Part shown: positions 27,219 through 53,436 of the stretch, one piece after another
Numbering within the stretch: position 1 is the first letter of the stretch
How the letters are laid out: each line of letters starts with the position of its first letter
NCBI GenBank assembly: GCA_003252395.1
Contig: QKEL01000009.1
Location: 620,001 to 684,000, forward strand
Origin: Spirochaetales bacterium
GTDB taxonomy: Bacteria; Spirochaetota; Spirochaetia; Treponematales; Treponemataceae
Length of the DNA: 64,000 bases
Reading direction: 5' to 3'
Program-made: the position numbers and the translations under genes
The notes under the pieces: model-generated
What the model saw: only the letters and a program-made list of their open reading frames with translations
The model's database searches: none
What the model was told of the DNA's origin: nothing

Positions 27219-28130
27219 TCACTCCGCGAGTCGCGCAAGCGCGGACTTTCCGAACAACGCGGAAATCCGCGCCGCAAAGCGCTGCGGCGGCTCGGCCAAG
27301 ATCGATTCGGGCAGGCCTTCAGGCCGTTCTTCCGGGCCAAAGGAAAGCTTCCATGCGTGCAGGCAATAACCGCCGTCGGTGGGCGCGGCGGAAGGATTGT
27401 AACGGGTATCGCCCTCGAGCGGGAGGCGATGCTTGGCGCATTGAAACCTGATCTGGTGCTTTCTTCCGGTGACGATCCGAAAGAGCGCAAGGGTGCGCGT
27501 GGGGCCGGAAACCGAGGCGGCGAGGGGATCGGCGAAGGTGATCATGGGTTTGCCGTCACCGGTCTCGTCGTACCACTCGGTCCTCCCGTCCAGGCGCCCC
27601 GCGACTATTCCGAGATAGAGCTTTTCGCATTCCCGCGCGGCGATCCGTTGGGAAAACCAATGGGCGCCGCGTAAGGTTTTGGAGAAGACCAGAATTCCCG
27701 AGGTACCGCGGTCCAGCCGGTGAAGCGGGCCGGACCGAAAGGATAGGGAATCCCGGGCGGCCTTGGACTGGGGTATGACCGTATCCAGTCCGTCAGGGCC
27801 GTGGACCGCGATCCCCACCGGCTTATTGATCGCCAGTAAATCCTCGCATTCGCACAGGATCTCCGGCATTGCCAGAGCGGGCGACACCGGGGGTTCGGGC
27901 CGGGGAGGGACGCGCGCCGCCTCAAGCTCGGGAAGGCGGGCGATCCATATATGGGAGCCCTGGGGTACGGGGCTTTCTGGGGATGATCGCTTGCCGTCAA
28001 TCCTCACGAGGCCCTTTCGTATGAGTCTGTACACCGAGGAAAGGGGCAAAGCGGGAAGGAATCTTCTGACTATTCTGTCCAACCGCCGCCCCTCGTCGTC
28101 AGGGGCCGTCGGGAAGTGATCAAATTGCAT
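27219..28130 (-). CDS. RluA-family pseudouridine synthase
   Basis: MQFDHFPTAPDDEGRRLDRIVRRFLPALPLSSVYRLIRKGLVRIDGK (S4-like), LHRLDRGTSGILVFSKT. Start placed at 28130. Confidence 0.93.
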   Translation of the reverse strand: MQFDHFPTAPDDEGRRLDRIVRRFLPALPLSSVYRLIRKGLVRIDGKRSSPESPVPQGSHIWIARLPELEAARVPPRPEPPVSPALAMPEILCECEDLLAINKPVGIAVHGPDGLDTVIPQSKAARDSLSFRSGPLHRLDRGTSGILVFSKTLRGAHWFSQRIAARECEKLYLGIVAGRLDGRTEWYDETGDGKPMITFADPLAASVSGPTRTLALFRIVTGRKHQIRFQCAKHRLPLEGDTRYNPSAAPTDGGYCLHAWKLSFGPEERPEGLPESILAEPPQRFAARISALFGKSALARLAE

Positions 28131-28136
28131 CGTAGG

Positions 28137-28164
28137 AGTATACCCGAATTCGCGCACTTGACAA
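28137..28164 (-). promoter_or_regulatory. Predicted promoter of RluA-type gene, leaderless
   Basis: Minus strand TTGTCA (28164-28159), 16 bp, TATACT (28142-28137), 6 nt, ATG at 28130. No Shine-Dalgarno. Confidence 0.6.
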
Positions 28165-28187
28165 AAGGCCTTATTTACCGGGATTAT
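28158..28187 (+). promoter_or_regulatory. Predicted promoter of DUF212 gene
   Basis: TTGACA (28158-28163), 18 bp, GATTAT (28182-28187), ATG at 28193. Confidence 0.45.
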
Positions 28188-28192
28188 TACTT

Positions 28193-28672
28193 ATGAATCG
28201 AGCGGTACTTCAGCAACTTAGTCTTCTCCTCCACAATCCCATTTTCCTTGCTGCCGTATCAAGCTGGATCATCAGTCAATTCCTGAAAACCCTTATTACC
28301 CTTTTCACGAATTCGGTCTCGACCCTTAAAGAACTCGCGGAACTCCTTTTCTGGAGAACCGGGGGAATGCCCTCAAGCCATTCGGCCCTGGTGTCCTCCG
28401 TTTCCACGACAATCGGTTTCAAAAACGGGATTTCCTCCGATTTGTTCATTTTTTCCTGCTGTTTCGCCCTCGTCGTGATTCGCGACGCCGTCGGCGTACG
28501 CCGGTCCAGCGGCGATCAGGCCCGGGCGCTCAACGAACTCGGCGACGCGGTAGCCGCACAGTCGGATTACCGCTTTAAACCCGTTAAGGAGATTCAGGGG
28601 CATAGTCCGATGGAGGTACTCGCGGGCATACTGCTCGGTTTCTTCATCGGAGTGGCCTTTTCGACCCTCTGA
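28193..28672 (+). CDS. Divergent PAP2 family (DUF212) membrane protein
   Basis: 159 aa; RTGGMPSSHSALVSSVSTTIGFKNG, VIRDAVGVRRSSGDQARALNEL, GHSPMEVLAGILLG. Confidence 0.92.
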   Translation: MNRAVLQQLSLLLHNPIFLAAVSSWIISQFLKTLITLFTNSVSTLKELAELLFWRTGGMPSSHSALVSSVSTTIGFKNGISSDLFIFSCCFALVVIRDAVGVRRSSGDQARALNELGDAVAAQSDYRFKPVKEIQGHSPMEVLAGILLGFFIGVAFSTL

Positions 28673-38838: not shown

Positions 38839-39911
38839 TGGACGTCACGGTTCGGGCGGCCGAATCCAAAACCGTTATCGGATCGGGTTCGGTCGCGCCG
38901 CGGTCATTCCTCCAAACCCCGTTTTGGGCGGAATTCAAGGCTTCCCACGGGTGGAAGCCTTTTTATTTTTTCGTACAGGCGGGCGAGGGCGAACGCTATC
39001 CCCTCATAGTCCTGGCACGGGATCTTGGCGTTTTCGGTACCCTCGCGTACGTTCCCCTCGGGCCCGATTCCCGGCTCTTGAGCGTAGAGGACCCCGGTAG
39101 GCGTCTCCTCGACCTTGCAAGGCAGATCGTTCCCCTCATCGGCAATACGGTTCTCTGCGTTCGCTTTGACCCGCCAATCGACGGGCTCGGCCCCTTGCCG
39201 AAAGGCCTTCGCAAGGCTTCGGTCGACGTTCAGCCCCCCGATACGGTCATTCTCGACCTTCGCCCGAGCGAGGAAGAGCTCCTTGACGGGATGAAACAAA
39301 AATGGCGCTATAACGTTCGGTTGGGCGAAAAGAAGGGAGTCGAGATTCGGGTACTGACCGGAAGGGAAGCGTCCGCCGGGGGAATAGACACGTTCTATGG
39401 GCTATATCGGGAAACCGCCTCCCGGGACGGTATCGCCATTCACGACAAGGCCTATTACCGGGATCTCTTTACGGCGGCCGAGGAAGGCCCGTTTCCCGCA
39501 GATATCCGGCTCTATATCGCGAGCCATGAAGGGGTCGATCTCGCCGCTATAGTGGTATTGTTTTCCGATGCGGGGGCGACTTATCTCTACGGCGCCTCGT
39601 CCAACGAGAAGCGGAATTTAATGCCCGCGTACGCCTTGCAGTGGCGCGCCATTCGCGACGCGAAGGCGGTCAATTGCCCCTACTACGATTTTTACGGCAT
39701 TCCCCCGTCCGATGCCCCCTCGCACCCCATGCATGGGCTCTACCGTTTTAAAACCGGCTTCGGCGGGTCGATCGTGCACCGGGCGGGAAGTTACGACGCG
39801 CCGGTCTCGGGGTTCCGCTATTTCGCGTGGAGCGTCGCCGAGATCGCGCGGACCGCCTGGTATAAAAAATTAAAAAAGCTGCTCAGGAAAGGAATTCCGA
39901 AGACTTCATAA
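38838..39911 (+). CDS. FemX/FemAB-like peptidyltransferase
   Basis: 357 aa; MKQKWRYNVRLGEKKGVEIRV, YLYGASSNEKRNLMPAYALQWRAIRDAKAVNCPYYDFYGIPP, LYRFKTGFGG. Confidence 0.92.
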   Translation: MDVTVRAAESKTVIGSGSVAPRSFLQTPFWAEFKASHGWKPFYFFVQAGEGERYPLIVLARDLGVFGTLAYVPLGPDSRLLSVEDPGRRLLDLARQIVPLIGNTVLCVRFDPPIDGLGPLPKGLRKASVDVQPPDTVILDLRPSEEELLDGMKQKWRYNVRLGEKKGVEIRVLTGREASAGGIDTFYGLYRETASRDGIAIHDKAYYRDLFTAAEEGPFPADIRLYIASHEGVDLAAIVVLFSDAGATYLYGASSNEKRNLMPAYALQWRAIRDAKAVNCPYYDFYGIPPSDAPSHPMHGLYRFKTGFGGSIVHRAGSYDAPVSGFRYFAWSVAEIARTAWYKKLKKLLRKGIPKTS

Positions 39912-40671
39912 GCCGAACGCCGATGTTCTCCACCTCACGGAGGAATTGGTCTCCCAATTCCTCAAAACCGGTCACGTTGGAGCTCACGTCGGTTAACACG
40001 ATGAGCTTATCGGCGGGGAGACAGGTTAAAAGGTCGCGTATCGTGTTCGCCACGCAATGGGAGAGCGCCTCTCCCGCGATAAGGATATTGTCCGCGGTCT
40101 TCAACCGCTCAATAAGCGCGAAATTGGTCCGGGAACCGGGATCGCCCGCGTCGGATACCTCCGCGCGGATCGCGCTGTAATGCTCGGTCCGGATATTGCT
40201 GCCCTTATACGTATAGTCCACGACGCGGCCGGGAGCGTTGCTTTCCCACTTGATGAGCACGTCGGATAGGGGACCGTAAATATTATGGCCCCAGGAGCCG
40301 ATAAGGCAATGCGGCGGCCAAATGCACAGGTTGTACTTTCCGGTCCTGTCCAGCGTATGCACGTATTCCACCGCGTAATTCTTGAATTGGGTAACCGAGG
40401 CGCTGTATTCGCCCGAAGATACCGATTCGGGCGTAATAAGGGTAAACGGCGCGGGATGCTTCCCGTCGCGGTCCACCCAGAAAGCGGGATGGGCTATATG
40501 GAAAAAATGGTGCGTATCCATGGTAACGTGAATCGAGCCCAAGGCATTGTCCAAACGGCCGATCATGAGGGCAAGGCGCATACAGTCATGGTCAGCGCCT
40601 GGTACGTACAACGAACCCTTCGGGTCGCAAAAATCGTTCTGCGGGTCGATGATGAGTAACGTATTAATCAT
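39883..40671 (-). CDS. Isochorismatase/nicotinamidase-like cysteine hydrolase
   Basis: MINTLLIIDPQNDFCDPKGSLYVPGA, VTMDTHHFFHIAHP, GEALSHCVANTIRDLL (catalytic Cys). Start at ATG 40671. Confidence 0.85.
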   Translation of the reverse strand: MINTLLIIDPQNDFCDPKGSLYVPGADHDCMRLALMIGRLDNALGSIHVTMDTHHFFHIAHPAFWVDRDGKHPAPFTLITPESVSSGEYSASVTQFKNYAVEYVHTLDRTGKYNLCIWPPHCLIGSWGHNIYGPLSDVLIKWESNAPGRVVDYTYKGSNIRTEHYSAIRAEVSDAGDPGSRTNFALIERLKTADNILIAGEALSHCVANTIRDLLTCLPADKLIVLTDVSSNVTGFEELGDQFLREVENIGVRLMKSSEFLS

Positions 40672-40677
40672 GGGCAC

Positions 40678-40705
40678 ATAGTACCATACTGGTTCTCATT
40701 GTCAA
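40678..40705 (-). promoter_or_regulatory. Predicted promoter of isochorismatase-like gene, leaderless
   Basis: Minus strand TTGACA (40705-40700), 16 bp, TACTAT (40683-40678), 6 nt, ATG 40671. Confidence 0.5.
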
Positions 40706-40727
40706 GCGTCGCCGATTCCTATATACT
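40699..40727 (+). promoter_or_regulatory. Predicted rnz promoter, leaderless
   Basis: TTGTCA (40699-40704), 17 bp, TATACT (40722-40727), 8 nt, ATG 40736. No Shine-Dalgarno. Confidence 0.6.
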
Positions 40728-40735
40728 TTGGCCCT

Positions 40736-41662
40736 ATGAATCTCGAAGCCTTTATCCTCGGTTGCGGAGGGATGATGCCCCTTCCTTACCGTCACTTGAC
40801 CTCCGTTCTGCTCAGGCGGGAAGGAGACCTTTTCCTGTTCGACGGCGGGGAGGGAACCCAGGTATCATTGCGAAAACTCAACCTTCGCTGGAAGAAAATC
40901 AACGCCATCTTCGTCAGCCACACCCATGCCGATCACGTAACCGGGCTTCCCGGACTGCTCATGCTCTCGTCCCAGGTCGATCGCGACGATCCCCTGTACA
41001 TTTACGGCCCGCCAAAAATCGCGGAATATATCGAATCGAGCCGTAAGGTTCTCGATATGTATATCAATTACCAAATCGTCGTCAAGGAAATTACCGAGCC
41101 CGGGATTTGCCACCAGGGAGACGGTTTTCACGTACGGGCCTTCCCGCTCCAGCACACGAAAACCTGCGTCGGGTACACGTTGGAGGAACACGTTCGCCCC
41201 GGCGCCTTCAACCCCGATCGCGCGCGGGAGCTCGGCGTTCCCTGCGGACCGCTTTGGTCGAAGCTACAGGGCGGAGAAAGCGTGTCCTCGGCCGACGGCG
41301 CCACGGTACATCCCGCAGACGTTCTCGGACCGAGCAGGAAGGGACGCAAGTTCAGTTACGTTACCGACACGAAATACCTTCCCTCGATCGCAAAAGAGGT
41401 CGTTGACTCCGACTTGTTGGTATGCGAGGGAATGTTTGAGAAGGCATTGACGGAAACGGCCGCGGAAAAAAAGCACATGACCGCCGTTCAGGCGGCGACC
41501 GTCGCCCGGGACGCAAGGGCCAAGAAACTGGCCTTGATCCATTATAGCCCCCGGTATACCGATAACGACCTAAAGGTGCTTCTCGCCGAGGCGAAATCGG
41601 TATTTCCGGAAACCGTGTTGAGCAAGGACAGAATGGTATTTCCCCTGGAATACGAGGATTGA
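40736..41662 (+). CDS. rnz: Ribonuclease Z
   Basis: 308 aa; FVSHTHADHVTGLPGLLML, LQHTKTCVGYTLEE, KFSYVTDTKY, LALIHYSPRY. Confidence 0.93.
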   Translation: MNLEAFILGCGGMMPLPYRHLTSVLLRREGDLFLFDGGEGTQVSLRKLNLRWKKINAIFVSHTHADHVTGLPGLLMLSSQVDRDDPLYIYGPPKIAEYIESSRKVLDMYINYQIVVKEITEPGICHQGDGFHVRAFPLQHTKTCVGYTLEEHVRPGAFNPDRARELGVPCGPLWSKLQGGESVSSADGATVHPADVLGPSRKGRKFSYVTDTKYLPSIAKEVVDSDLLVCEGMFEKALTETAAEKKHMTAVQAATVARDARAKKLALIHYSPRYTDNDLKVLLAEAKSVFPETVLSKDRMVFPLEYED

Positions 41663-52138: not shown

Positions 52139-52606
52139 TTATCCGTCGTTCTTCTTGCGGAATTCGCGTTGCAAGTCTCGTTTCACGTCTCTGTCGCGAA
52201 TATCCGACCGCTTATCAAACAACTTTTTGCCCTTACCGATACCGAGATTTACCTTTACGCGTCCGTTTTTCAGGTAAAAATCGAGCGGAATCAGGGTAAA
52301 CCCCTTTTCCTCGACCTTCCGAATTAACCGCTTGATTTCGTCCCGATGCAGTAAAAGCTTTTTGGGGCGGTCCGGATCATGATTGAATATCGATGAATAG
52401 ACGTACGGGGTTATGTGCAAGCCCATAATCCATATTTCGCCGTTGCGTATTTCACCGAACGCGTCGGGAAAGGACACGTTTCCGGCCTTGAACGACTTCA
52501 CTTCGGTACCTTCCAGCACGATACCGCATTCGATGGAGTCTTCTATGCTGTAGTTGAAGCGCGCTTTTCTGTTTTGCGCGATGCTTCCTGAGGTACCTTT
52601 ACCCAT
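52139..52606 (-). CDS. smpB: SsrA-binding protein
   Basis: 155 aa; NRKARFNYSIEDSIECGIVLEGTEVKSFKAGNVSFPDAF, KKLLLHRDEIKRLIRKVEEKGFTLIPLDFYLKNGRVKVNLGIGKGKKLFDKR. Confidence 0.97.
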   Translation of the reverse strand: MGKGTSGSIAQNRKARFNYSIEDSIECGIVLEGTEVKSFKAGNVSFPDAFGEIRNGEIWIMGLHITPYVYSSIFNHDPDRPKKLLLHRDEIKRLIRKVEEKGFTLIPLDFYLKNGRVKVNLGIGKGKKLFDKRSDIRDRDVKRDLQREFRKKNDG

Positions 52607-52614
52607 GGTAGGGA

Positions 52615-52644
52615 ATTATATGGTTTTGCGAACTCTCTTGTCAA
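52615..52644 (-). promoter_or_regulatory. Predicted smpB promoter, leaderless
   Basis: Minus strand TTGACA (52644-52639), 18 bp, TATAAT (52620-52615), 8 nt, ATG 52606. Both hexamers are consensus; no Shine-Dalgarno. Confidence 0.7.
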
Positions 52645-52666
52645 CGACGGACCTTCATGTTACCAT
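52638..52666 (+). promoter_or_regulatory. Predicted lepB promoter (leadered)
   Basis: TTGTCA (52638-52643), 17 bp, TACCAT (52661-52666); GGAGG and ATG 52696 downstream. Confidence 0.5.
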
Positions 52667-52695
52667 TTTCCGGATTATCCCACGGAGGCCGCACG

Positions 52696-53436
52696 ATGCC
52701 CGCTAAATGGCACAAATATTCCTACTCAGCGCAGAGGCAAGAACGTCGATCGGCGCTTTTAGTTTTCTTCTTCATCGTCCTATTCGCGGCGGTTTTCTGG
52801 CTGATTCACACGTTTCTGTTCACGATGTACCGGGTAGGGTCCCCGACGATGGAACCGAACCTCTCTGACGGGGACCGCATAATCGCGACGCCGCTGTACA
52901 AAACCTCCGACTCCCGAGGCGGGCGAAATCCCCTCCTGACGCCGGTGACGAGGGGGGATTTAGCGGTAATCGGGCCGGAACATCCCGAAGCTTCGTCGCT
53001 TTTCCGGAGCGCGATCAATTCGGTTATATCGTTCGTAACCCTCCAGAAAATGAGACCCTTAAGCGATTCGCGCTCGTTGGTTTCGAAGCCGGTTATTCGG
53101 AGAATCGTGGGAATGCCGGGCGATACCATTTATCTTGAGAAATCGGTATTACGCATTAAAACCCCCGAGTCGTCGCACTTCCTTACGGAATTTGAGATTA
53201 TCAACGGCGAGTACGACATCAACGTGGATATTCTCCCCGAGGGATGGACCGCTGACCTACCGTTTTCCGACGCTACTTCGGAACTTACGCTTGGACCAAA
53301 CGAGTACTTCGTTCTGTGCGACAATAGGCAAACCGCCAGCGATTCCCGAATATGGGGCCCGATTCCCGGTACGCGCATACAGGCGAAGGCATTTTTCCGC
53401 TATTGGCCGTTATCGGAACTTGGCCTACTCCATTAA
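52696..53436 (+). CDS. lepB: Signal peptidase I
   Basis: Start ATG 52696 after GGAGG; RVGSPTMEPNLSDGDRIIATPLY, KPVIRRIVGMPGDTIYLE, YFVLCDNRQTASDSRIWGPIP. Confidence 0.93.
   Translation: MPAKWHKYSYSAQRQERRSALLVFFFIVLFAAVFWLIHTFLFTMYRVGSPTMEPNLSDGDRIIATPLYKTSDSRGGRNPLLTPVTRGDLAVIGPEHPEASSLFRSAINSVISFVTLQKMRPLSDSRSLVSKPVIRRIVGMPGDTIYLEKSVLRIKTPESSHFLTEFEIINGEYDINVDILPEGWTADLPFSDATSELTLGPNEYFVLCDNRQTASDSRIWGPIPGTRIQAKAFFRYWPLSELGLLH

Follow-up and report, generated by a model that had tools for sequence, protein, structure and literature searches.

A predicted back-to-back sigma70 promoter pair with one shared, near-palindromic -35 element between smpB and lepB in Treponemataceae

The gap between the divergent genes smpB and lepB very probably holds a real pair of back-to-back sigma70 promoters that use one near-palindromic -35 element, TTGTCAA, in common. 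The same arrangement occurs in two further gaps of the 64,000-nucleotide stretch that was analyzed (the window, C1:620001-684000, from a genome of 3.41 Mb in 15 contigs). Three lines of evidence bear on this arrangement: the promoter elements themselves, their frequency in divergent gaps relative to shuffled sequence, and their conservation in related genomes.

Promoter elements in three divergent gaps

The heptamer TTGWCAA reads as TTGWCAA on both strands, so that one copy provides TTGACA in one direction and TTGTCA in the other. At smpB/lepB, TTGACA points toward smpB (52644..52639 on the minus strand) and TTGTCA toward lepB (52638-52643 on the plus strand). In each direction, TTGACA-like and TATAAT-like hexamers of the housekeeping sigma70 type stand 16-18 bp apart, and 40 bp separate the two -10 hexamers (Table 1). 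Direct reading of the sequence places the heptamer, right to the base, where an earlier note on this DNA had put it as the -35 of both genes. It also finds the remaining elements listed there, namely TTGACA, 18 bp, TATAAT, 8 nt and ATG for smpB on the minus strand, and TTGTCA, 17 bp, TACCAT and a leader with GGAGG for lepB on the plus strand. TACCAT is a mediocre -10. A search of the smpB/lepB region against Rfam returned no match, and a search for near-identical plasmid DNA found none. Among named sequences, the smpB loci closest to this one come from the Spirochaetales metagenome bins SZUA-416 and SZUA-377 and from Treponema species, which places the genome in the Treponema family.

The earlier note had also described three divergent pairs with this arrangement in the window, and all three are present by sequence and by scan. 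The window contains three copies of TTGWCAA versus 3.7 expected by chance; the number is thus unremarkable, and what stands out is where the copies lie. All three lie inside divergent gaps (62, 64 and 89 bp), of which the window has seven with lengths of 30-400 bp. A -10-like hexamer flanks each copy to the left and to the right at 16-18 bp. Of the six predicted promoters that result, five have 5-8 nt between the -10 and an ATG.

Table 1. Positions in the window of the genes and predicted promoter elements at the three divergent gaps
Feature	Position	Strand	Basis
Shared palindromic -35 heptamer TTGTCAA (TTGACA to smpB, TTGTCA to lepB)	52638..52644	.	sequence; conserved in relatives
smpB -10 TATAAT, 18-bp spacer, 8 nt before ATG (leaderless type)	52615..52620	-	sequence; position kept in Treponemataceae
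lepB -10 TACCAT, 17-bp spacer	52661..52666	+	sequence; TAnnnT in 15/15 TTGACAA loci
TG of lepB extended -10 (TGnTAnnnT)	52658..52659	+	in 15/15 TTGACAA loci, five genus codes
lepB ribosome-binding site GGAGG	52684..52688	+	sequence
smpB (trans-translation protein)	52139..52606	-	Pfam PF01668 SmpB, 4.4e-59; ATG at 52606
lepB-type signal peptidase	52696..53436	+	Pfam PF10502 Peptidase_S26, 5.7e-25; ATG at 52696
Shared -35 TTGTCAA between iso and mbl	40699..40705	.	sequence and scan; conserved in relatives
mbl-side -10 TATACT, 8 nt to ATG	40722-40727	+	sequence and scan
iso-side -10 TACTAT with TG extension, 6 nt to ATG	40678-40683	-	sequence and scan
Isochorismatase-like gene (iso)	39883..40671	-	weak Pfam match, under gathering score
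Metallo-beta-lactamase-fold gene (mbl)	40736..41662	+	Pfam PF12706, 9.3e-21
Shared -35 TTGACAA between rlu and DUF212	28158..28164	.	sequence and scan; heptamer conserved in genus
DUF212-side -10 GATTAT, 5 nt to ATG	28182-28187	+	sequence and scan
rlu-side -10 TATACT, 6 nt to ATG	28137-28142	-	sequence and scan
RluD-like pseudouridine synthase (rlu), ATG at 28130	27219..28130	-	Pfam PF00849, PF01479; gene call
DUF212 (divergent PAP2 family) gene	28193..28672	+	Pfam PF02681

The smpB -10 is so near its start codon, at 8 nt, that transcription is expected to begin at or within a few nucleotides of the ATG. In nearly all Treponemataceae loci (L016-L125) this -10 sits 6-10 nt before the ATG, whatever the upstream neighbor, and the distance holds while the N-terminal residues of SmpB vary across the family. 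Because the position of the -10 is kept despite the variable N-terminus, the prediction of a leaderless smpB mRNA is well supported by sequence. More generally, -10-like TAnnnT hexamers are found 6-9 nt before start codons in 83 cases versus 48 expected. GGAG-like sites 5-10 nt before starts dominate overall, which makes leaderless genes the less frequent type in the genome. A second, divergent copy of smpB occurs in two relatives (G005:C32:23528-23953 and G036:C17:45145-45576, with 47% and 40% identity) and represents either a paralogue or contamination.

Frequency of the shared register

The scan was performed on contig C1 (843 kb, 25% of the genome), for which gene calling gave 747 genes and 90% coding sequence, with called starts that match those used in the analysis. 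A 6.5 kb region of this contig (G000:C1 near 773863) has no called protein genes; it may be an RNA operon or may have been overlooked in gene calling. Promoters were scored on both strands, with the exact shared register corresponding to an offset of -1, and 200 dinucleotide shuffles of the divergent gaps served as the control. Pieces of 400 kb from three related genomes (G008, G014 and G045) were sampled as well.

Genome-wide, the bare heptamer is not enriched, with 159 copies of TTGWCAA versus 162 for a reversed-pattern control. Divergent gaps, 20.8 kb in all, contain 13 of the 53 copies on C1, and the density per kb is 0.63 in divergent gaps, 0.23 in co-directional gaps, 0.10 in convergent gaps and 0.036 in coding sequence. 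The earlier note had proposed a comparison of divergent gaps with dinucleotide-shuffled sequence as its test, and on C1 the two-sided register proves strongly enriched. It is found exactly in 7 of the 78 C1 divergent gaps (about 9%) versus 0.06 in shuffles, none of the 200 shuffles reaching 7; a first background setting of the same scan gave 6 versus 0.16. Neighboring offsets in these gaps occur at about 0.19 each, and co-directional gaps on C1, scanned with the same thresholds, yield no two-sided site. Coincidence is rejected because the register is so strongly enriched over shuffles and does not occur in co-directional gaps. Two of the seven sites carry TTCACAA or TGGACAA instead of TTGWCAA, and four of the seven sit outside the window. 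That the window holds the other three in an 843-kb sample (hypergeometric p = 0.014) is partly a matter of luck and selection. Among the relatives, the two-sided register is present in 2 of 29 gaps in the same-genus G008, 0 of 36 in G014 and 2 of 46 in G045. These low counts, like the share of about 9% on C1, weigh against the shared-element reading.

An alternative explanation is that each site is a real promoter in one direction only and that the -10 on the other side is there by chance. Any TTGACAA automatically resembles TTGTCA on the opposite strand, and this symmetry lifts the chance rate several-fold. In shuffled gaps the shared register is about 7 times commoner than other offsets (0.06 versus 0.009 per offset), because one TTGACAA provides both -35s together. 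Much of the two-sided excess thus comes from the -35 symmetry itself. When promoter density is multiplied by the symmetry factor, about 1.3 sites are predicted on C1 versus the 7 observed (p = 0.0003), and the corresponding values outside the window are 1.15 and 4 (p = 0.03). An approximately 5-fold excess therefore remains after correction, which counts against chance as the source of the second promoter.

Promoter pairs at offsets of -48 to -38, in which the -10s overlap, also exceed shuffles in the C1 divergent gaps (L126-L164 and the window), with 23 versus 11 at a threshold of 8 and 7 versus 1.1 at a threshold of 10. These offsets are those of the described shared -10 class.

Conservation in related genomes

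The heptamer is invariant in all same-genus copies examined at smpB/lepB, iso/mbl, rlu/DUF212 and a lipoprotein-like/secA pair, with flanks that have largely diverged; at three loci its identity within the genus is 1.00 versus 0.56-0.64 for the rest of the aligned stretch. For smpB/lepB, alignment of the same-genus loci on the heptamer leaves it 100% identical, with an average of 59% for the remaining columns. In most Treponemataceae loci recovered, smpB is divergent to lepB, and CG-TTGACAA-G is found in 10 of 10 same-genus loci and in five loci of other genera. At iso/mbl, TTGTCAA is present in all nine same-genus loci and in two other-genus loci with the same neighbor. The secA pair lies outside the window and was picked up by the scan, and it provides a fresh test of conservation. 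Here TTGTCAA forms the common -35 of secA and a divergent lipoprotein-like gene (L159:9849-9925), and all 10 same-genus loci whose upstream DNA could be read keep it, as does one locus of another genus; secA in other families mostly has TTGACC. This pair parallels smpB/lepB in that secA is of the leaderless type and its neighbor has a leader with GGAGG. A similar-looking gap in G008 (283035) was considered as an orthologue of the secA gap and was rejected as not orthologous.

Conservation of the weaker side also argues against use in a single direction. The genus keeps the -10 on either side, and with it the TG extension of the weaker one, and the invariant columns of the lepB side and the iso side spell TGnTAnnnT. 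The symmetric -35 also tends to accompany the divergent partner. TTGWCAA occurs in 0 of 21 smpB loci without a divergent lepB versus 16 of 51 with it (Fisher p = 0.0035, uncorrected for phylogeny), and TTGTCAA occurs upstream of mbl in 11 of 12 loci with a divergent iso versus 0 of 18 without. Where the partner is absent, smpB and mbl have TTGAGN, TTGCCN or TTGAAA as -35. Tree-based independent pairs comparing the symmetric -35 with the divergent partner point in the same direction, although not significantly, with few independent changes. The rlu/DUF212 locus favors the one-directional explanation: its heptamer is present in 10 of 10 same-genus loci, yet other families retain it even with the partner absent or distant, so it may serve one direction only. 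This locus is accordingly weaker evidence for two-way use. The TTGACAA before DUF212 (window 28158-28192 and L184-L194), kept even in those other families, is accompanied by a weak and variable -10. Considering all of these loci, promoters that act in one direction only are an improbable explanation of the shared sites.

At the smpB/lepB gap of a Treponema group (L036, L044, L051, L052, L055 and L062), the even palindrome TTGCAA replaces TTGWCAA and the lepB-side -10 is TATTCT. TTGCAA appears to be a second symmetric solution at this gap.

The palindrome could instead be the operator of a regulator of both genes that represses them by overlapping the -35. Its symmetry and conservation are compatible with such a role, and in Acinetobacter both umuDAb/ddrR -35s lie over one arm of a UmuDAb site (PMC7273328). 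However, the genus-consensus flanking bases are G/G, A/G and C/A at three loci, and at no locus was a dyad or repeat found that extends beyond the -35 independently of the -10 spacing. A dyad of no more than 7 bp makes a regulator site unlikely. In addition, the central base does not vary within a locus, both -10s are always 16-18 bp away and the gene pairs have no common pathway, all of which makes an operator highly improbable. Three occurrences in 64 kb might suggest that a promoter cassette spread by mobility or duplication to several divergent gaps, but this is barely credible because the gaps have nothing in common besides the heptamer and the -10s, with spacers that differ in sequence and length and a related symmetric TTGCAA at smpB in other Treponema.

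The earlier note had concluded that the arrangement reflects a reused promoter design rather than coincidence. The rejection of coincidence stands, given the excess over shuffles, and the conservation at four loci supports a function. A copied or preferred module is not supported, since the register occupies about 9% of gaps, the three window gaps share only a 7-mer and the bare heptamer is unenriched. The data fit better with an economical solution that arose repeatedly and independently.

Proposed mechanism and comparison with known systems

In the proposed mechanism, sigma region 4 of the housekeeping RNA polymerase would bind TTG-W-CAA in either orientation and engage a -10 located 16-18 bp off on each side. 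Toward smpB, a consensus promoter would begin transcription a few bases from the ATG; toward lepB, the extended -10 TGnTAnnnT would make up for the weaker TTGTCA, and transcription would produce a short leader with GGAGG. The predicted starts are back to back, and the shared -35 would take one polymerase at once. Initiation would be mutually exclusive, because two polymerases cannot both hold this element, and smpB and lepB, which are unrelated neighbors, probably compete for RNA polymerase. Promoter activity, start sites, leaderless RNA and polymerase competition or exclusivity are what we infer from the arrangement of these elements. Each locus keeps its central base in one orientation, and an extended or near-consensus -10 serves the direction that reads TTGTCA; this suggests a balance between the strengths of the two promoters. 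The design probably recurs because adding one A to TTGACA gives a symmetric sequence, and because two full promoters fit into 60-90 bp when starts are leaderless. The near-symmetry of TTGACA would be the cheapest route to two promoters in such a space.

A broader reading, held tentatively at slightly less than an even chance, is that selection in Treponemataceae has maintained a class of bidirectional promoters whose defining feature is a palindromic -35 (TTGWCAA) common to both directions, at several core gene pairs with smpB/lepB and a secA pair among them. Transcription of one core gene would then exclude that of its unrelated partner, with leaderless starts enabling the short gaps. If true, this reading would show how core genes are packed into divergent gaps of 60-90 bp. 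It would also predict that a ribosome-rescue gene and a secretion gene are coupled antagonistically, and a single change of the central base would shift the balance between directions.

Earlier work on bacterial bidirectional promoters has focused on -10 symmetry, whereas here it is the -35 that is symmetric, two-sided, enriched and, across a genus, conserved. The literature searched, mainly open-access papers, yielded no class of promoters based on a common -35, and the nearest case is Acinetobacter umuDAb/ddrR (PMC7273328). Both -35s of that divergent pair likewise lie over the same short sequence, but there it is a UmuDAb repressor arm, whereas the dyad at smpB/lepB is a 7-mer with no evident regulator. 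The ilvY/ilvC promoters are also divergent and oriented back to back; as cited in PMC4469952, they are described as supercoiling-coupled, in a description without a common -35 hexamer. In the described bidirectional promoters (PMC10268837; PMC12825309; Warman et al. 2021, as cited by later papers), a symmetric -10 is shared and the starts are 7-25 bp apart, 18 being the commonest distance. As at smpB/lepB, a symmetric core sigma70 element lets a short piece of DNA drive both strands, and one polymerase is expected to keep out the other. The smpB/lepB pair differs from that class in that it shares the -35 and has back-to-back starts at a predicted distance of about 65 bp, rather than 7-25 bp over a common -10.
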